Virus record (IMG/VR): IMGVR_UViG_3300021963_004546
Coordinates: 1 to 35,766 of that record
Direction: 5' to 3' (one strand)
Length of the DNA: 35,766 bases
Source of the DNA: a virus
Every line of letters starts with the position of its first letter. Position 1 is the first letter of the stretch. Under the pieces are notes generated by a model. The model was not told where the DNA came from, ran no database searches, and was given only the letters and a program-made list of their open reading frames with translations. The translations under genes were made by a program, and so were the position numbers. Shown piece after piece: positions 2,623 to 34,575 of this stretch.

Positions 2623-2630
2623 TATTTATC
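2623..2630 (-). promoter_or_regulatory. Late promoter GATAAATA before the outer-membrane protein
   Basis: The minus strand reads GATAAATA, 7 of 8 bases of the T4 late consensus TATAAATA. It overlaps the stop codon of the lysozyme gene and opens a leader of about 140 bases before the ATG at 2483. The leader contains no ORF of note. A GAGGAC stretch 7 bases before the ATG can serve as ribosome binding site. Confidence 0.55.
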
Positions 2631-3294
2631 CTTTTTTCCAGGATTCACCTTCTGCTTTTCTTCTACGAGCAAGACCTGCTTCAACATTAGAACCAGGGTT
2701 ACGATAAAGGAATAAAGCATCAGGAACTAAATCCCATTCTTTATTCTTTAGGCGTTTAGTAATAGTATTAAAGTTATCGCCACCGTAGAAACCAGCACCA
2801 AGATTATAAGCAAAGCTGAGCAGAGCTCCTCTTTTCCCATCTGACATTTCGCTCCAATAAGGAATTTTTCTTAAAGCAGGTAAAAACTCTTTTTTACACT
2901 GCTCAATGAGAAGTGCATCTGCTTCTGCCTGTGTTAATGTATCACCAAGTTTGAATGCTGAACCATCTTTCTTACGAGTAGAACCCCAACCAATTGTGAT
3001 TGGAAGTCCACCTGTGAGAGGATCAGGGTATGCCTTGAGATGACATCCCTCAAACTCTTTGATTAACTTGATGCCCATCATTGGCACATCATCACCACCT
3101 GTTACAGGAGCTGCAGCAGCAGGGGTTGCTGGTGCAGCACTAGTCTTTTTTCCGCGAAAGAGCTCCGCCCACTCTACATTATCTTCAAGAAATTTAACTG
3201 GAAGATTGTCTTCTAACCATTGAACTGCTTTAACATGATTAGGATTTCTTTCATCATAAAACTGAAAGAAATTGTGTAAATCTACTTTTGCCAT
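2626..3294 (-). CDS. Endolysin, GH24 lysozyme with N-terminal shared module
   Basis: 222 aa. Residues 1-47 (LHNFFQFYDERNPNHVKAVQ...) form a module also found in the upstream peptidase. Residues 48-70 are an Ala/Pro linker. From about residue 72 the protein is a GH24 lysozyme. The T4-lysozyme catalytic triad is visible as Glu82 in EFEG, Asp91 in YPDP and Thr100 in TIGWG, followed by the conserved NLGAGFYGG and ARRRKAEGE parts. It should cleave the glycan chain of peptidoglycan between MurNAc and GlcNAc. There is no signal peptide, so release needs a holin, or the protein rides in the virion. It lies 14 nt after the peptidase gene and is probably read from the same late promoter. Confidence 0.85.
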   Translation of the reverse strand: MAKVDLHNFFQFYDERNPNHVKAVQWLEDNLPVKFLEDNVEWAELFRGKKTSAAPATPAAAAPVTGGDDVPMMGIKLIKEFEGCHLKAYPDPLTGGLPITIGWGSTRKKDGSAFKLGDTLTQAEADALLIEQCKKEFLPALRKIPYWSEMSDGKRGALLSFAYNLGAGFYGGDNFNTITKRLKNKEWDLVPDALFLYRNPGSNVEAGLARRRKAEGESWKKG

Positions 3295-3308: not shown

Positions 3309-3980
3309 TCAGTCGAAAATTCTACCCCAACCATCGTTGCCACCGGGGCACCAACGATGCTTAAGCATTGCTTTAGTGTAAGTGGTCTTCTTACCGTTTG
3401 TCACTGGACCAGTGTAATTGTCATTGCATGAACCATAAGGATCATTAACAAAATAACCTTTACCATCTGGTGTCTTGCCAATTACAACACACATGTGCCC
3501 ACCAGTAGGTGCAGAAAGAGGACCCCTGTGCAGAATACCAATAACGACAGGTTTCCCAGCATCAAGACTTTTATCAATATCAGCGAAAGAAAGATTGTAA
3601 CTAAAGTGTGACTTAACTCCATAACCTTCCAGAACTTTTGTCTGAACGGCATGATCCGTTGTATCACCAATTGCAAATACTTTCTTGACATACTCATCAT
3701 CACCTTTAATGCTTCCTGGCTTGAGGAAAGCAAGACACATAGCACATGACGAACTGTTGCAAGTTCTGTGTGCATCTCTGTAGTTGTCTACTTGATTGAA
3801 ATAAGGAACTGCAAGAACTTCTGGAGTGGGTGGTTTGGTTCTAAACAGTCCAACCCAATCAGTTTCTGCATCATCAAGAAATTCAGCGGGAAGATTATCT
3901 TCTAACCATTGAACTGCTGCAACATGATTTGAATTTTTCTCATCATAAAATTTAAAAAAATTGTGGAGATCTAATGCCAT
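3309..3980 (-). CDS. C39-like cysteine peptidase with the same N-terminal module as the lysozyme
   Basis: 223 aa. Residues 1-46 (LHNFFKFYDEKNSNHVAAVQ...) are a close copy of the start of the downstream lysozyme. A Pro linker leads to a papain-like domain of the C39 type, beginning PYFNQVDN. The nucleophile is probably Cys74 in RTCNSSSCAM, the His is in GGHMCVVIG, and the third catalytic residue is in VNDPYG. Proteins of this kind are annotated in phages as peptidases and may cut peptide bridges of the cell wall or process proteins; the substrate here is not known. A perfect TATAAATA box lies 24 bases before the ATG. Confidence 0.7.
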   Translation of the reverse strand: MALDLHNFFKFYDEKNSNHVAAVQWLEDNLPAEFLDDAETDWVGLFRTKPPTPEVLAVPYFNQVDNYRDAHRTCNSSSCAMCLAFLKPGSIKGDDEYVKKVFAIGDTTDHAVQTKVLEGYGVKSHFSYNLSFADIDKSLDAGKPVVIGILHRGPLSAPTGGHMCVVIGKTPDGKGYFVNDPYGSCNDNYTGPVTNGKKTTYTKAMLKHRWCPGGNDGWGRIFD

Positions 3981-4003
3981 TGAATATTCCCAGACACTGA
4001 AGA

Positions 4004-4011
4004 TATTTATA
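4004..4011 (-). promoter_or_regulatory. Late promoter, perfect TATAAATA
   Basis: The minus strand reads TATAAATA, identical to the T4 late promoter consensus. It starts directly after the T-tract of the peroxiredoxin terminator and lies 24 bases before the ATG of the peptidase gene. It should drive the peptidase-lysozyme pair late in infection. Confidence 0.7.
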
Positions 4012-4036
4012 AAAAAAGCGCCTATTTGGGCGCTTT
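4011..4036 (-). terminator. Rho-independent terminator of the redox cassette
   Basis: Arms AAAGCGCC and GGCGCTTT (4029-4036 and 4015-4022) enclose a 6-base loop and are followed on the minus strand by a run of seven T. It lies just after the peroxiredoxin stop and ends the hli-ferredoxin-peroxiredoxin unit. The T-run merges into the next late promoter. Confidence 0.85.
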
Positions 4037-4044
4037 GTTAATCT

Positions 4045-4572
4045 TTAAACTAATTCAAGTTCCAATACTGAAGAACGAATATAGTTTAGTATATTTTCAG
4101 GTGTCGATACTTCATATGGGTCGGTGTCCGCATTGTCACGGAAACCGTCCTCCACGAATATCTTTTCGATGATTCCATTATCCACGACTGCAGCATAACG
4201 CCAAGAGCGACTGCCGAAACCAAGGTTAGACTTACTGACGAGATATCCCATTGAGCGAGTGAAGTATGCATTGCCATCAGGAATAAGTTTGACTTTTTGA
4301 ATGTTTTGATCTTGTGCCCAAGCATTCATCACAAAGCCATCATTAACAGATACACAGTAAATAGCATCGATACCAAGAGCAGCAAACTCTTCGTACTTCT
4401 CTTCAAATCCAGGCAACTGATAAGCAGAGCAAGTAGGAGTAAATGCACCAGGTAAACTGAAAATAACCACACGCTTAGCATCAAATAGTTCAGCAGATGT
4501 TTTAGTTACAAACTCACCAGATTCACGGAATACAAATTCAACTTGAGGAACTTGATATCCTTCTTTACGCAT
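4045..4572 (-). CDS. Peroxiredoxin, Prx5 type
   Basis: 175 aa when started at ATG 4570-4572, which has a GGAGG site 5 bases upstream; reading further upstream only translates the hli gene in another frame. The Prx5 signature PGAFTPTCS is complete, with peroxidatic Cys48, and the length is normal for the family. The enzyme reduces hydrogen peroxide and alkyl peroxides with thiol donors in the cytoplasm. No glutaredoxin domain is fused to it. It is the last gene of a unit with two hli genes and ferredoxin, and probably protects the infected photosynthetic cell from peroxide made under light stress. Confidence 0.85.
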   Translation of the reverse strand: MRKEGYQVPQVEFVFRESGEFVTKTSAELFDAKRVVIFSLPGAFTPTCSAYQLPGFEEKYEEFAALGIDAIYCVSVNDGFVMNAWAQDQNIQKVKLIPDGNAYFTRSMGYLVSKSNLGFGSRSWRYAAVVDNGIIEKIFVEDGFRDNADTDPYEVSTPENILNYIRSSVLELELV

Positions 4573-27624: not shown

Positions 27625-27790
27625 CAAAAGTATTCAGGCTCGCCACCAATTCTTTTGCTGGAAATTGGAAACCAGGCGGGGTTGCCCCATCCGCACCAAC
27701 GGCATTTGGGAGATGCCGTAAACTCATTAAGGGGTCATATTGACTCCACCAGTTCTGTTTAAGTCCATCCGTGACTAAGGGGGTTTACTC
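27625..27790 (-). ncRNA. Candidate folded RNA upstream of the terminator
   Basis: This 160-base stretch holds no convincing gene and is visibly richer in G and C than its neighbours. On the minus strand it contains ACGGCAT/ATGCCGT (27713-27719 with 27699-27705), GGGG/CCCC around a 3-base loop (27785-27788 equivalent arms at 27678-27688) and CCAATT/AATTGG (27663-27668 with 27646-27651), then the terminator at 27601. One frame stays open for 62 codons, but it runs through the terminator stem and lacks a ribosome binding site. A small RNA or long structured 3' end is the better reading. Confidence 0.35.
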
Positions 27791-31364: not shown

Positions 31365-31367
31365 AAG

Positions 31368-31439
31368 TGGGCGATGAGGGATTCGAACCCCCGACCCTCT
31401 CCGTGTAAAGGAGGTGCGCTACCACTGCGCTAATCGCCC
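31368..31439 (-). tRNA. tRNA-Val (TAC)
   Basis: Acceptor GGGCGAT/ATCGCCC, discriminator A, anticodon loop TTTACAC, T-arm CGGGG-type with TTCGAAT. Anticodon TAC. The first pair of the anticodon stem is C-A mismatched. The 5' end overlaps the last 10 bases of the HNH gene. Confidence 0.9.
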
Positions 31440-31741
31440 GTATTGTGTATTTCTCTATGGCAATTTGCACAAACAAGAATACACTTTTTTGCTTCTGCTC
31501 TTTGTTTTTCTAGAGAAGCAGTAGATCCAATTATACCACCTTCCTTAACAGAAGGATCTAAATGGTGAAACTCTAGTGCTGCCATACACTTATCATAACC
31601 ACATTTGGAGCAACAGTTTCCTGCTTCTTCTTTAAGAATTGCCATATTCTTTCTGCGGGTTGCTGAAACACGGTCTCCCATTTTCTTTGCCCACATTGGA
31701 TTTTTTGCTTTTCTTTCTGCGTATGTTCTAGTTTCTGGCAT
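31430..31741 (-). CDS. HNH endonuclease, probably free-standing homing type
   Basis: 103 aa. A basic N-terminal region (AKNPMWAKKMGDRVSATRRK) precedes the HNH core: CSKCGYDKC zinc pair, LEFHHLDPSVKEGG with the catalytic His, and CILVCANCHREIHN with the Asn and second His plus two more zinc Cys. It nicks or cuts DNA. Small HNH genes next to phage tRNAs usually are mobile. Its start lies 2 bases after a perfect inverted repeat that holds a late promoter. Its 3' end overlaps tRNA-Val by 10 bases. Confidence 0.87.
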   Translation of the reverse strand: MPETRTYAERKAKNPMWAKKMGDRVSATRRKNMAILKEEAGNCCSKCGYDKCMAALEFHHLDPSVKEGGIIGSTASLEKQRAEAKKCILVCANCHREIHNTGD

Positions 31742-31742
31742 T

Positions 31743-31776
31743 TTACTGGTATAACTTTATTTATTTATACCAGTAA
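31743..31776 (-). promoter_or_regulatory. Late promoter TATAAATA inside a 12-bp inverted repeat before the HNH gene
   Basis: Arms 31765-31776 and 31743-31754 are perfect complements (core TACTGGTATAA / TTATACCAGTA) around a 10-base loop. TATAAATA (31762-31769, minus strand) spans the end of the first arm and the loop. Transcripts from upstream would fold and hide the ATG two bases later. A transcript begun at this promoter should start near 31755, lack the first arm and stay open. Confidence 0.7.
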
Positions 31777-31848
31777 CTCCCCCGACAAGATTCGAACTTG
31801 TGACCTGGAAATTAACAGTTTCTCGCGCTACCGCTGCGCCACAGGGGA
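31777..31848 (-). tRNA. tRNA-Asn (GTT)
   Basis: Acceptor TCCCCTG/CGGGGGA, discriminator G, anticodon loop CTGTTAA, T-arm ACAAG-TTCGAAT-CTTGT. Anticodon GTT. The outermost pair of the anticodon stem is A-C mismatched. The 3' end touches the inverted repeat of the HNH gene. Confidence 0.9.
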
Positions 31849-31896: not shown

Positions 31897-31898
31897 AG

Positions 31899-31969
31899 AG
31901 CGAATGACGGGGATCGAACCCGTGACACCAACTTGGAAGGATGGGATGTTACCGCTACACCACATTCGC
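31899..31969 (-). tRNA. tRNA-Gly (TCC)
   Basis: Acceptor GCGAATG/CATTCGC, discriminator T, anticodon loop CTTCCAA, T-arm ACGGG-TTCGATC-CCCGT. Anticodon TCC reads GGA. CCA is not encoded. A consensus-like promoter ends 10 bases upstream. Confidence 0.92.
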
Positions 31970-31978
31970 AATAAACTT

Positions 31979-32007
31979 ATTGTACTTTATTTCTCTCCGT
32001 ATGTCAA
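31979..32007 (-). promoter_or_regulatory. Host-type promoter TTGACA-N17-TACAAT for the tRNA-Gly unit
   Basis: TTGACA (32002-32007) and TACAAT (31979-31984) on the minus strand with optimal 17-base spacing. The -35 box lies inside the 3' end of the cytidylyltransferase gene. Transcription should start within a few bases of the tRNA-Gly 5' end. Confidence 0.75.
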
Positions 32008-33833: not shown

Positions 33834-34003
33834 GATTCTGGTTCTAGGGAAACAATTTCCAATTCATCATCCTCTGGCTCAATCCACTCATAGAACTCTG
33901 CCAAAATAGCGCGGGCATCATCTTTTGGTACATCCATATTTGCAGCGCGGTCAAGAGACCATGCTCTCACATGTGCAACAATGTCTTCAGTCGTTGCGTT
34001 CAT
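33830..34003 (-). CDS. Hypothetical acidic protein, 57 aa
   Basis: Started at ATG 34001-34003 because the longer frame overlaps the endonuclease gene almost fully. MNATTEDIVAHVRAWSLDRA leads a helical protein with an acidic end (EWIEPEDDELEIVSLEPES). It overlaps the endonuclease by 17 bases. No family recognised. Confidence 0.62.
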   Translation of the reverse strand: MNATTEDIVAHVRAWSLDRAANMDVPKDDARAILAEFYEWIEPEDDELEIVSLEPES

Positions 34004-34427
34004 AATAATCTTTTCGGAAGTACCGATTGAGGATGTTGCTATTGTAGTACCTGGGTATTCCGTTGTCAAGAGATTCAGTGAGGACATTATGCGCGAAGAG
34101 TTGTCTTGTCTCTTCGAAGTTAGTTTTGCCCTTTGTTTTATGTAATGATAAAATAGTGCGCGTAAAATTCTCCCTACCATACTTATCTACATCTTCCTTA
34201 AGTTCTGGACATGATCCGTAGTATTTTTTCCAATCAGACTCCGACTTAACTTTTCTAGATTTTCCTCTTGGTGTGCGGAAACTCCAGAAATACTTTCGAC
34301 CAATATAGTCACGACCAGTCTTATTGCAATGTATATGATATACAAAGCCAAAATAATCTTGAATATCATCTGAACCAAATACTTCTCCATTATAGGTCCA
34401 AGGATTTTCATAGTCAATATCTGTACT
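33987..34427 (-). CDS. SegE-like GIY-YIG endonuclease
   Basis: 146 aa from ATG 34425-34427; the longer reading overlaps the 53-aa gene. FGFVYHIHCNKTGRDYIGRK is the GIY-YIG core (here F-V-Y and Y-I-G with the following Arg), then SESDWKKYYGSCPELKED and KYGRENFTRTILSLHKTKGK, LFAHNVL. These match Seg-type phage endonucleases. It should cut DNA at a chosen site and spread its own gene or flanking DNA between phages. A CATAAATA box inside the upstream gene may give late expression. Confidence 0.8.
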   Translation of the reverse strand, partial: STDIDYENPWTYNGEVFGSDDIQDYFGFVYHIHCNKTGRDYIGRKYFWSFRTPRGKSRKVKSESDWKKYYGSCPELKEDVDKYGRENFTRTILSLHKTKGKTNFEETRQLFAHNVLTESLDNGIPRYYNSNILNRYFRKDYYERND

Positions 34428-34575
34428 CATCAACAATATGCAAGACTTCATCCAGATATTTATGAGCAAGTCCCTTCATATCCATATCATGACGAATGTG
34501 CTCTGTATGAAGTTGATGCTTAAGTTTTAAGATACGAATCTTAAATTCATCTTTCGTTATTTTATTTTTAGCCAT
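34414..34575 (-). CDS. Hypothetical protein, 53 aa
   Basis: The ORF starts MAKNKITKDEFKIRILKLKH and ends KYLDEVLHIVDEYRY. It is a small, charged, helical protein. It starts directly after the terminator hairpin of the nrdB unit and overlaps the endonuclease start by 14 bases. Its position between two called genes supports it. Function unknown. Confidence 0.6.
   Translation of the reverse strand: MAKNKITKDEFKIRILKLKHQLHTEHIRHDMDMKGLAHKYLDEVLHIVDEYRY
34457..34464 (-). promoter_or_regulatory. Late-promoter-like CATAAATA before the GIY-YIG gene
   Basis: Seven of eight bases match TATAAATA on the minus strand, inside the 53-aa gene and 30 bases before the endonuclease ATG. T4 endonuclease genes often have late promoters in such positions. 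Confidence 0.4.

Follow-up and report, generated by a model that had tools for sequence, protein, structure and literature searches.

An inverted repeat carrying a late-promoter box at the start of an HNH gene in cyanophage-like tRNA arrays, a likely late-only expression switch

The window, meaning the whole 35,766-nucleotide stretch of viral DNA analyzed here (IMG/VR record IMGVR_UViG_3300021963_004546), carries on its minus strand a sigma-70-like promoter, tRNA-Gly, tRNA-Asn, a hairpin, an HNH gene, and tRNA-Val, in that order. The first-pass annotation had described a free-standing HNH gene between tRNAs and this arrangement is borne out; a start hairpin with a late promoter inside a tRNA cluster has a precedent in T4 segB (PMC2988022). 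The tRNA genes, called by ARAGORN and Rfam, are tRNA-Gly (TCC; 31898-31969), tRNA-Asn (GTT; 31777-31848), which abuts the hairpin, and tRNA-Val (TAC; 31367-31439). The promoter (TTGACA-17-TACAAT; 31979-32007; 11 of 12 matches in a consensus scan) lies directly upstream of tRNA-Gly. Because promoter-like sites are no more numerous in this region than in shuffles, position is the main argument for this promoter, which is a candidate source of early read-through RNA. No terminator-like site was found on the minus strand between it and the HNH gene.

The HNH open reading frame (ORF; minus strand, 31430-31741; 103 aa) matches PHROG HNH families (best 2.7e-23) and overlaps the 5' end of tRNA-Val, such that its TAG stop codon (31430-31432) consists of T8, A9, and G10 of the tRNA. 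The motifs C-x2-C, HH, and C-x2-C-H-R-E-x-H are present in the profile match. Against Pfam HNH, the window protein scores below the cut-off and that of relative L021 above it; in PHROG and Pfam together the window protein matches HNH families only, with no GIY-YIG nuclease domain. Searching the PDB by sequence with the HNH protein and by fold with its model was uninformative, and matches of the AlphaFold model to solved structures are weak. The protein is a putative homing endonuclease. Elsewhere in the window, a SegE-like GIY-YIG nuclease gene (33987-34469; Pfam 3.4e-53) overlaps its preceding ORF, and neither a late box nor a hairpin was seen in the sequence upstream of it. A wcaG RNA motif is located at 27632-27727 (96.6 bits).

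Immediately 3' of tRNA-Asn, the minus strand reads TTACTGGTATAA-ATAAATAAAG-TTATACCAGTAA-A-ATG. An inverted-repeat search identified a first (5') arm at 31765-31776 and a second (3') arm at 31743-31754, which form a perfect stem of 12 bp (31776-31765 with 31754-31743) around a 10-nt loop (31755-31764). The 5' end of the first arm directly follows the discriminator base of tRNA-Asn (Infernal, 31848-31777). The late-promoter box TATAAATA, a sequence match to the gp55-type late motif NATAAATA, extends across the first arm and loop (31762-31769), just where it had first been placed. The perfect 12-bp repeat in front of the HNH ATG likewise stands, but the gap of two bases originally given is by coordinates a single base (31742), between the end of the second arm at 31743 and the start codon at 31741. 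The leader has a predicted fold of -12.8 kcal/mol (z = -4.96), and Rfam has no known element at the position of the hairpin.

Dinucleotide shuffles predict 0.03 perfect stems of 12 bp or more with a 3-20 nt loop in the window; two exist, and only the hairpin at 31743-31776 overlaps a TATAAATA. The other perfect 12-bp inverted repeat (AGATGCTGTCGA, 9-nt loop, 289-321) is without a late box. By itself, TATAAATA is not enriched in the window (two found vs. 1.25 expected), and the weight given to the copy at the HNH gene therefore comes from its position and its conservation in relatives. The sole other copy (minus strand, 4004-4011) is 23 nt before an endolysin-family ORF (3309-3980), a location that would fit a late promoter and offers an internal comparison. 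At 3980-4040, a terminator-like hairpin (GCGCC...GGCGC, TTTTTTTATAAATA) has a T-run that overlaps this second box; such a hairpin may be another way of shutting off read-through. The adjacent ORFs 2626-3294 and 3309-3980 match two halves of the endolysin-like phrog_3617 (245-404 and 1-232, respectively) and appear to be one split or frameshifted gene.

Protein searches yielded 17 close viral contigs as well as Synechococcus phages S-H38 and S-WAM2, and later two further subfamilies. Within subfamily A, the loop is 10 nt in every leader and the core GGTATAAATA-N7-TTATACC is constant, whereas the outer arm varies with compensation (TTACT/AGTAA in the window, TTATC/GATAA in L004, and ATCTTT/AAAGAT in S-H38). 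Covariation, seen in the outer pairs of the first arm and in their partners in the second, was counted on 10 distinct subfamily A leaders, with 500 shuffles and with partners slid by 1-3 columns as a control. Across these leaders, 95% of stem cells are paired versus 32-45% with slid partners, and two-sided changes are present in four pairs and 11 cells. None of the 500 shuffles equaled the number of cells paired, the number of two-sided cells, or the covariation score; the count of pairs with a two-sided change is alone not unusual, as 103 of 500 shuffles were as high. RNAalifold recovers the identical helix. Because the sequences are related and cells are not independent events, it is the slide control and the unrelated stems found elsewhere that carry the argument. 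Exceptions are a C-A mismatch in the L009 group, a stem of only 8 bp in L017, and a mismatch in L016. Comparing relatives for compensating changes in the arms, which the first-pass annotation had named as a way to refute its own reading, thus gave a mostly favorable outcome.

The design is also reused with different sequences. The stem is TGGTAGAA/TTCTACCA in subfamily B and GATTAAC/GTTAATC in subfamily C, in both cases beside TATAAATA and the ATG. Across the three subfamilies, stem sequences are unrelated and are placed alike relative to the box and start codon. A more distant HNH gene in DSL-LC02 (L003) has the stem GTTCTAATTT/AAATTAGAAC, with TATAAATA in the loop and second arm. This HNH gene (3755-4144) ends deep inside tRNA-Ser, where the TGA of its stop codon is also the TGA of the anticodon. 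An exact late box is absent from the Vibrio relatives. When viral contigs were scanned with GGTATAAATA-N2-14-TTATACC, the matches listed were mostly chance occurrences with short arms. The HNH gene is unannotated in S-H38 (L001, 2998-3309), and in S-WAM2 (L002, 2998-3309) it is annotated from a later start, which hides its leader.

We tallied these features over 46 distinct cassettes, scoring stems of at least seven Watson-Crick pairs that end no more than 8 nt from the start codon and occurrences of TATAAATA within 50 nt. A start-adjacent stem is present in 43 of 46 cassettes, versus 3.9% of random ATGs in S-H38, and the box is present in 39 of 46. In 34 of 46, the first base of the HNH stop codon is position 8 or 9 (ARAGORN numbering) of a downstream sense tRNA, which is tRNA-Asn, -Val, or -Thr. 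The stop/tRNA overlap is also found in Vibrio phages F86 and VH1_2019, the latter a KVP40-like straboviral phage. More distant HNH genes in phages Sl26 and KoPa-4 (L247 and L250) overlap the following tRNA-Ile and tRNA-Gly, respectively. A tRNA-Asn gene adjoins 43 of the 46 cassettes, upstream or downstream and sense or antisense, and DSL-LC02 has a cassette-free tRNA-Asn/tRNA-Val junction. The constant adjacency suggests, as a proposal, that tRNA-Asn may be the homing target or its neighbor.

Some cassettes (L175-L182 and L232) are in antisense orientation relative to the tRNA array, and most genes that flank them are encoded on the opposite strand. These copies keep the hairpin and a late-type box, either TATAAATA or, in L175-L177 and L182, AATAAATA. 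Antisense copies of the A type differ in their outer arms and maintain pairing (GTTGGTAT/ATACCAAC and AATGGTAT/ATACCATT). Since antisense copies retain the hairpin, read-through from the tRNA operon is not the sole reason for it, and we interpret the hairpin as a portable insulator carried along with the HNH gene rather than as a guard against tRNA-operon read-through only. In L175 and L182, a tRNA-like sequence that ARAGORN does not call and that looks degenerate is upstream of the HNH gene.

Evidence that the box is a late signal comes from relatives. For cyanomyoviruses, a gp55-type late motif, NATAAATA, has been reported together with genes encoding gp55, gp33, and gp45 (PMC2984593). Homologues of all three are annotated in relatives, and the 26 copies of TATAAATA in S-H38 exceed the expected 5.9, with many situated 19-46 nt ahead of structural genes. 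These counts, placements, and annotated homologues mark the box as a real late signal in relatives. A start-adjacent stem is nevertheless not a general feature of late genes, a possibility that we rejected because, of the 36 pairs of late box and ORF examined across S-H38 and S-WAM2, only three have one and all three are HNH genes. The third case is a second HNH gene of S-H38, located after the major capsid gene (HNH profile 8.9e-14), which fits less well because its predicted late start leaves ∼5 bp of the stem. HNH genes do not stand out among late leaders by total fold difference alone; by this measure the HNH leader is second of 18 in S-H38, behind that of the portal gene, and second of eight in S-WAM2.

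In T4, late promoters follow a spacing rule from box to transcript start. Applied to the window, this spacing predicts a late transcript that starts at 31756 or 31755. As had been proposed for a start 6-7 bases after the box, the geometry of the sequence is such that the first arm would be removed, and 0 of 12 bp of the stem would remain in the window, with 3-4 bp remaining in subfamilies B and C. Folding leaders with and without the first arm, as suggested by the first-pass annotation, bears out the predicted opening of the start region, with mean unpaired probability for bases -14 to +6 rising from 0.23-0.27 with the first arm to 0.74 without it. None of the leaders examined has AGGA, GGAG, or GAGG within 25 nt before the start codon, and since there is no Shine-Dalgarno sequence to sequester, any block must be steric occlusion of the start region.

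We consider it likely that the hairpin leader is a late-only expression switch of a mobile HNH gene, similar to those of T4 I-TevI, SegB, and Aeh1 MobE. RNA initiated further upstream, as at the tRNA-Gly promoter, would carry both arms, and the 12-bp stem one base before the AUG would keep 30S subunits off the initiation region. After gp55-type late transcription begins, RNA polymerase would start at ∼31756, within the loop, and the resulting RNA, lacking the first arm, would have a short single-stranded leader from which HNH could be translated. The likeness to I-TevI drawn at the outset gains support from the covariation, from the unrelated stems in three subfamilies, and from a promoter-like site upstream with no terminator-like site in between; experimental precedents are reviewed in PMC2988022 and PMC3014915.

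Other explanations for the inverted repeat were weighed against this switch. It could be a DNA operator, or site for the HNH protein, over the gene's own promoter that mediates autorepression and has no role in RNA. I-TevI does bind an operator over its own late promoter (PMC2988022), the core GGTATAA/TTATACC does not vary within subfamily A, and the arms of subfamilies B and C are nearly invariant within each. But a binding site is expected to keep its letters rather than complementarity, and the outer letters in subfamily A vary freely, with pairing kept, among relatives whose proteins are 77-87% identical to that of the window. Moreover, the core that does not vary corresponds to the promoter box plus its complement and the end of the stem is always at the start codon, leaving a DNA site unlikely. 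An element that mainly governs mRNA stability or RNase cleavage, with no effect on translation, would be compatible with the AU-rich loop and with the processing of T4 segB, segG, and Aeh1 mobE transcripts at RNase E-like sites (PMC2988022). We regard this as quite unlikely because in most copies the stem is ∼1 base from the AUG, a distance at which occlusion would be difficult to prevent, and because the predicted late start removes it.

The hairpin abuts the 3' end of tRNA-Asn in the window and most of subfamily A, as would be the case if it belonged to the tRNA array as a terminator or as a 3'-processing or stability element of tRNA-Asn. However, it has no T-run and was not called in a terminator search. 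The hairpin is still at the HNH start where a different tRNA is upstream or the tRNA is some 50 nt away, as in S-H38, S-WAM2, and subfamilies B and C. It is absent from the cassette-free tRNA-Asn/tRNA-Val junction of DSL-LC02 and retained in antisense copies. A function in the array is thus very improbable, and we rejected a terminator or tRNA-processing hairpin as candidates. Lastly, an AT-rich leader could happen to pair with a late box, as the lack of enrichment of TATAAATA in the window and the merely second-place fold difference of the S-H38 HNH leader might hint. Coincidence is strongly disfavored by covariation, and with recurrence of the design on unrelated stem sequences, rarity of such repeats, and other late genes being without start-adjacent stems, it is extremely improbable.

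The hairpin could also protect the tRNA array. Because the 3' end of the HNH ORF is inside the downstream tRNA, ribosomes on the tRNA precursor would unfold that tRNA, and cleavage by RNase P would strip the stop codon from the mRNA. We propose that, as a result of this overlap, HNH translation and tRNA maturation would be mutually exclusive on any one molecule. Keeping the early tRNA precursor free of ribosomes may, tentatively, be a selected function, which we think possible but less probable than not. The 3' end of the I-TevI ORF similarly extends into structured RNA, the intron core there and a tRNA here. Hairpin control of I-TevI protects splicing of the td intron, a parallel to protection of a tRNA (PMC2988022).

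Comparisons with segB and mobE draw on two reviews (PMC2988022 and PMC3014915) and the T4 sequence. T4 segB, listed among hairpin-regulated endonucleases (PMC2988022), is likewise a free-standing nuclease gene between tRNAs, and its leader in the T4 sequence has a late box, CATAAATA, in the first arm of a start hairpin. Unlike the window gene, it encodes a GIY-YIG rather than an HNH nuclease, its hairpin closes over GGAG as well as ATG whereas the window leader has no Shine-Dalgarno sequence, and its ORF stops 5 bases short of the next tRNA rather than within it. In T4 I-TevI, of the td intron, a hairpin in early and middle RNA blocks the start and late RNA lacks its first part (PMC2988022), but the nuclease is an intron-encoded GIY-YIG enzyme with a sequestered Shine-Dalgarno sequence and operator autorepression. 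Aeromonas phage Aeh1 mobE is also an HNH gene that stands alone, has a late promoter, and has its start sequestered by a hairpin (PMC2988022; PMC3014915); it differs in being in a ribonucleotide reductase gene region with no tRNA array and in sequestering a Shine-Dalgarno sequence. Start hairpins also block early RNA of T4 genes e, soc, and 49, and in gene e the start is freed by late promoters located within the hairpin's 5' strand (PMC3014915), but these are ordinary phage genes and not mobile nucleases.

The principle of the switch, including its use in a tRNA cluster, is therefore already known from segB. What is new is the HNH/cyanophage family, the form without a Shine-Dalgarno sequence, the repeatedly re-invented stem, and the stop codon derived from a tRNA, of which we found no description in a literature search that covered few subscription papers. 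The HNH gene of this cyanophage-like virus can probably be read only from late transcripts. The findings carry a control principle studied in T4 and in Aeromonas phages over to the tRNA arrays of cyanophages and a large family of HNH elements there, for which compensating changes and a stem repeatedly re-invented around one late box give comparative support. That the HNH ORF overlaps the next tRNA is a testable reason why early silencing would be tight.
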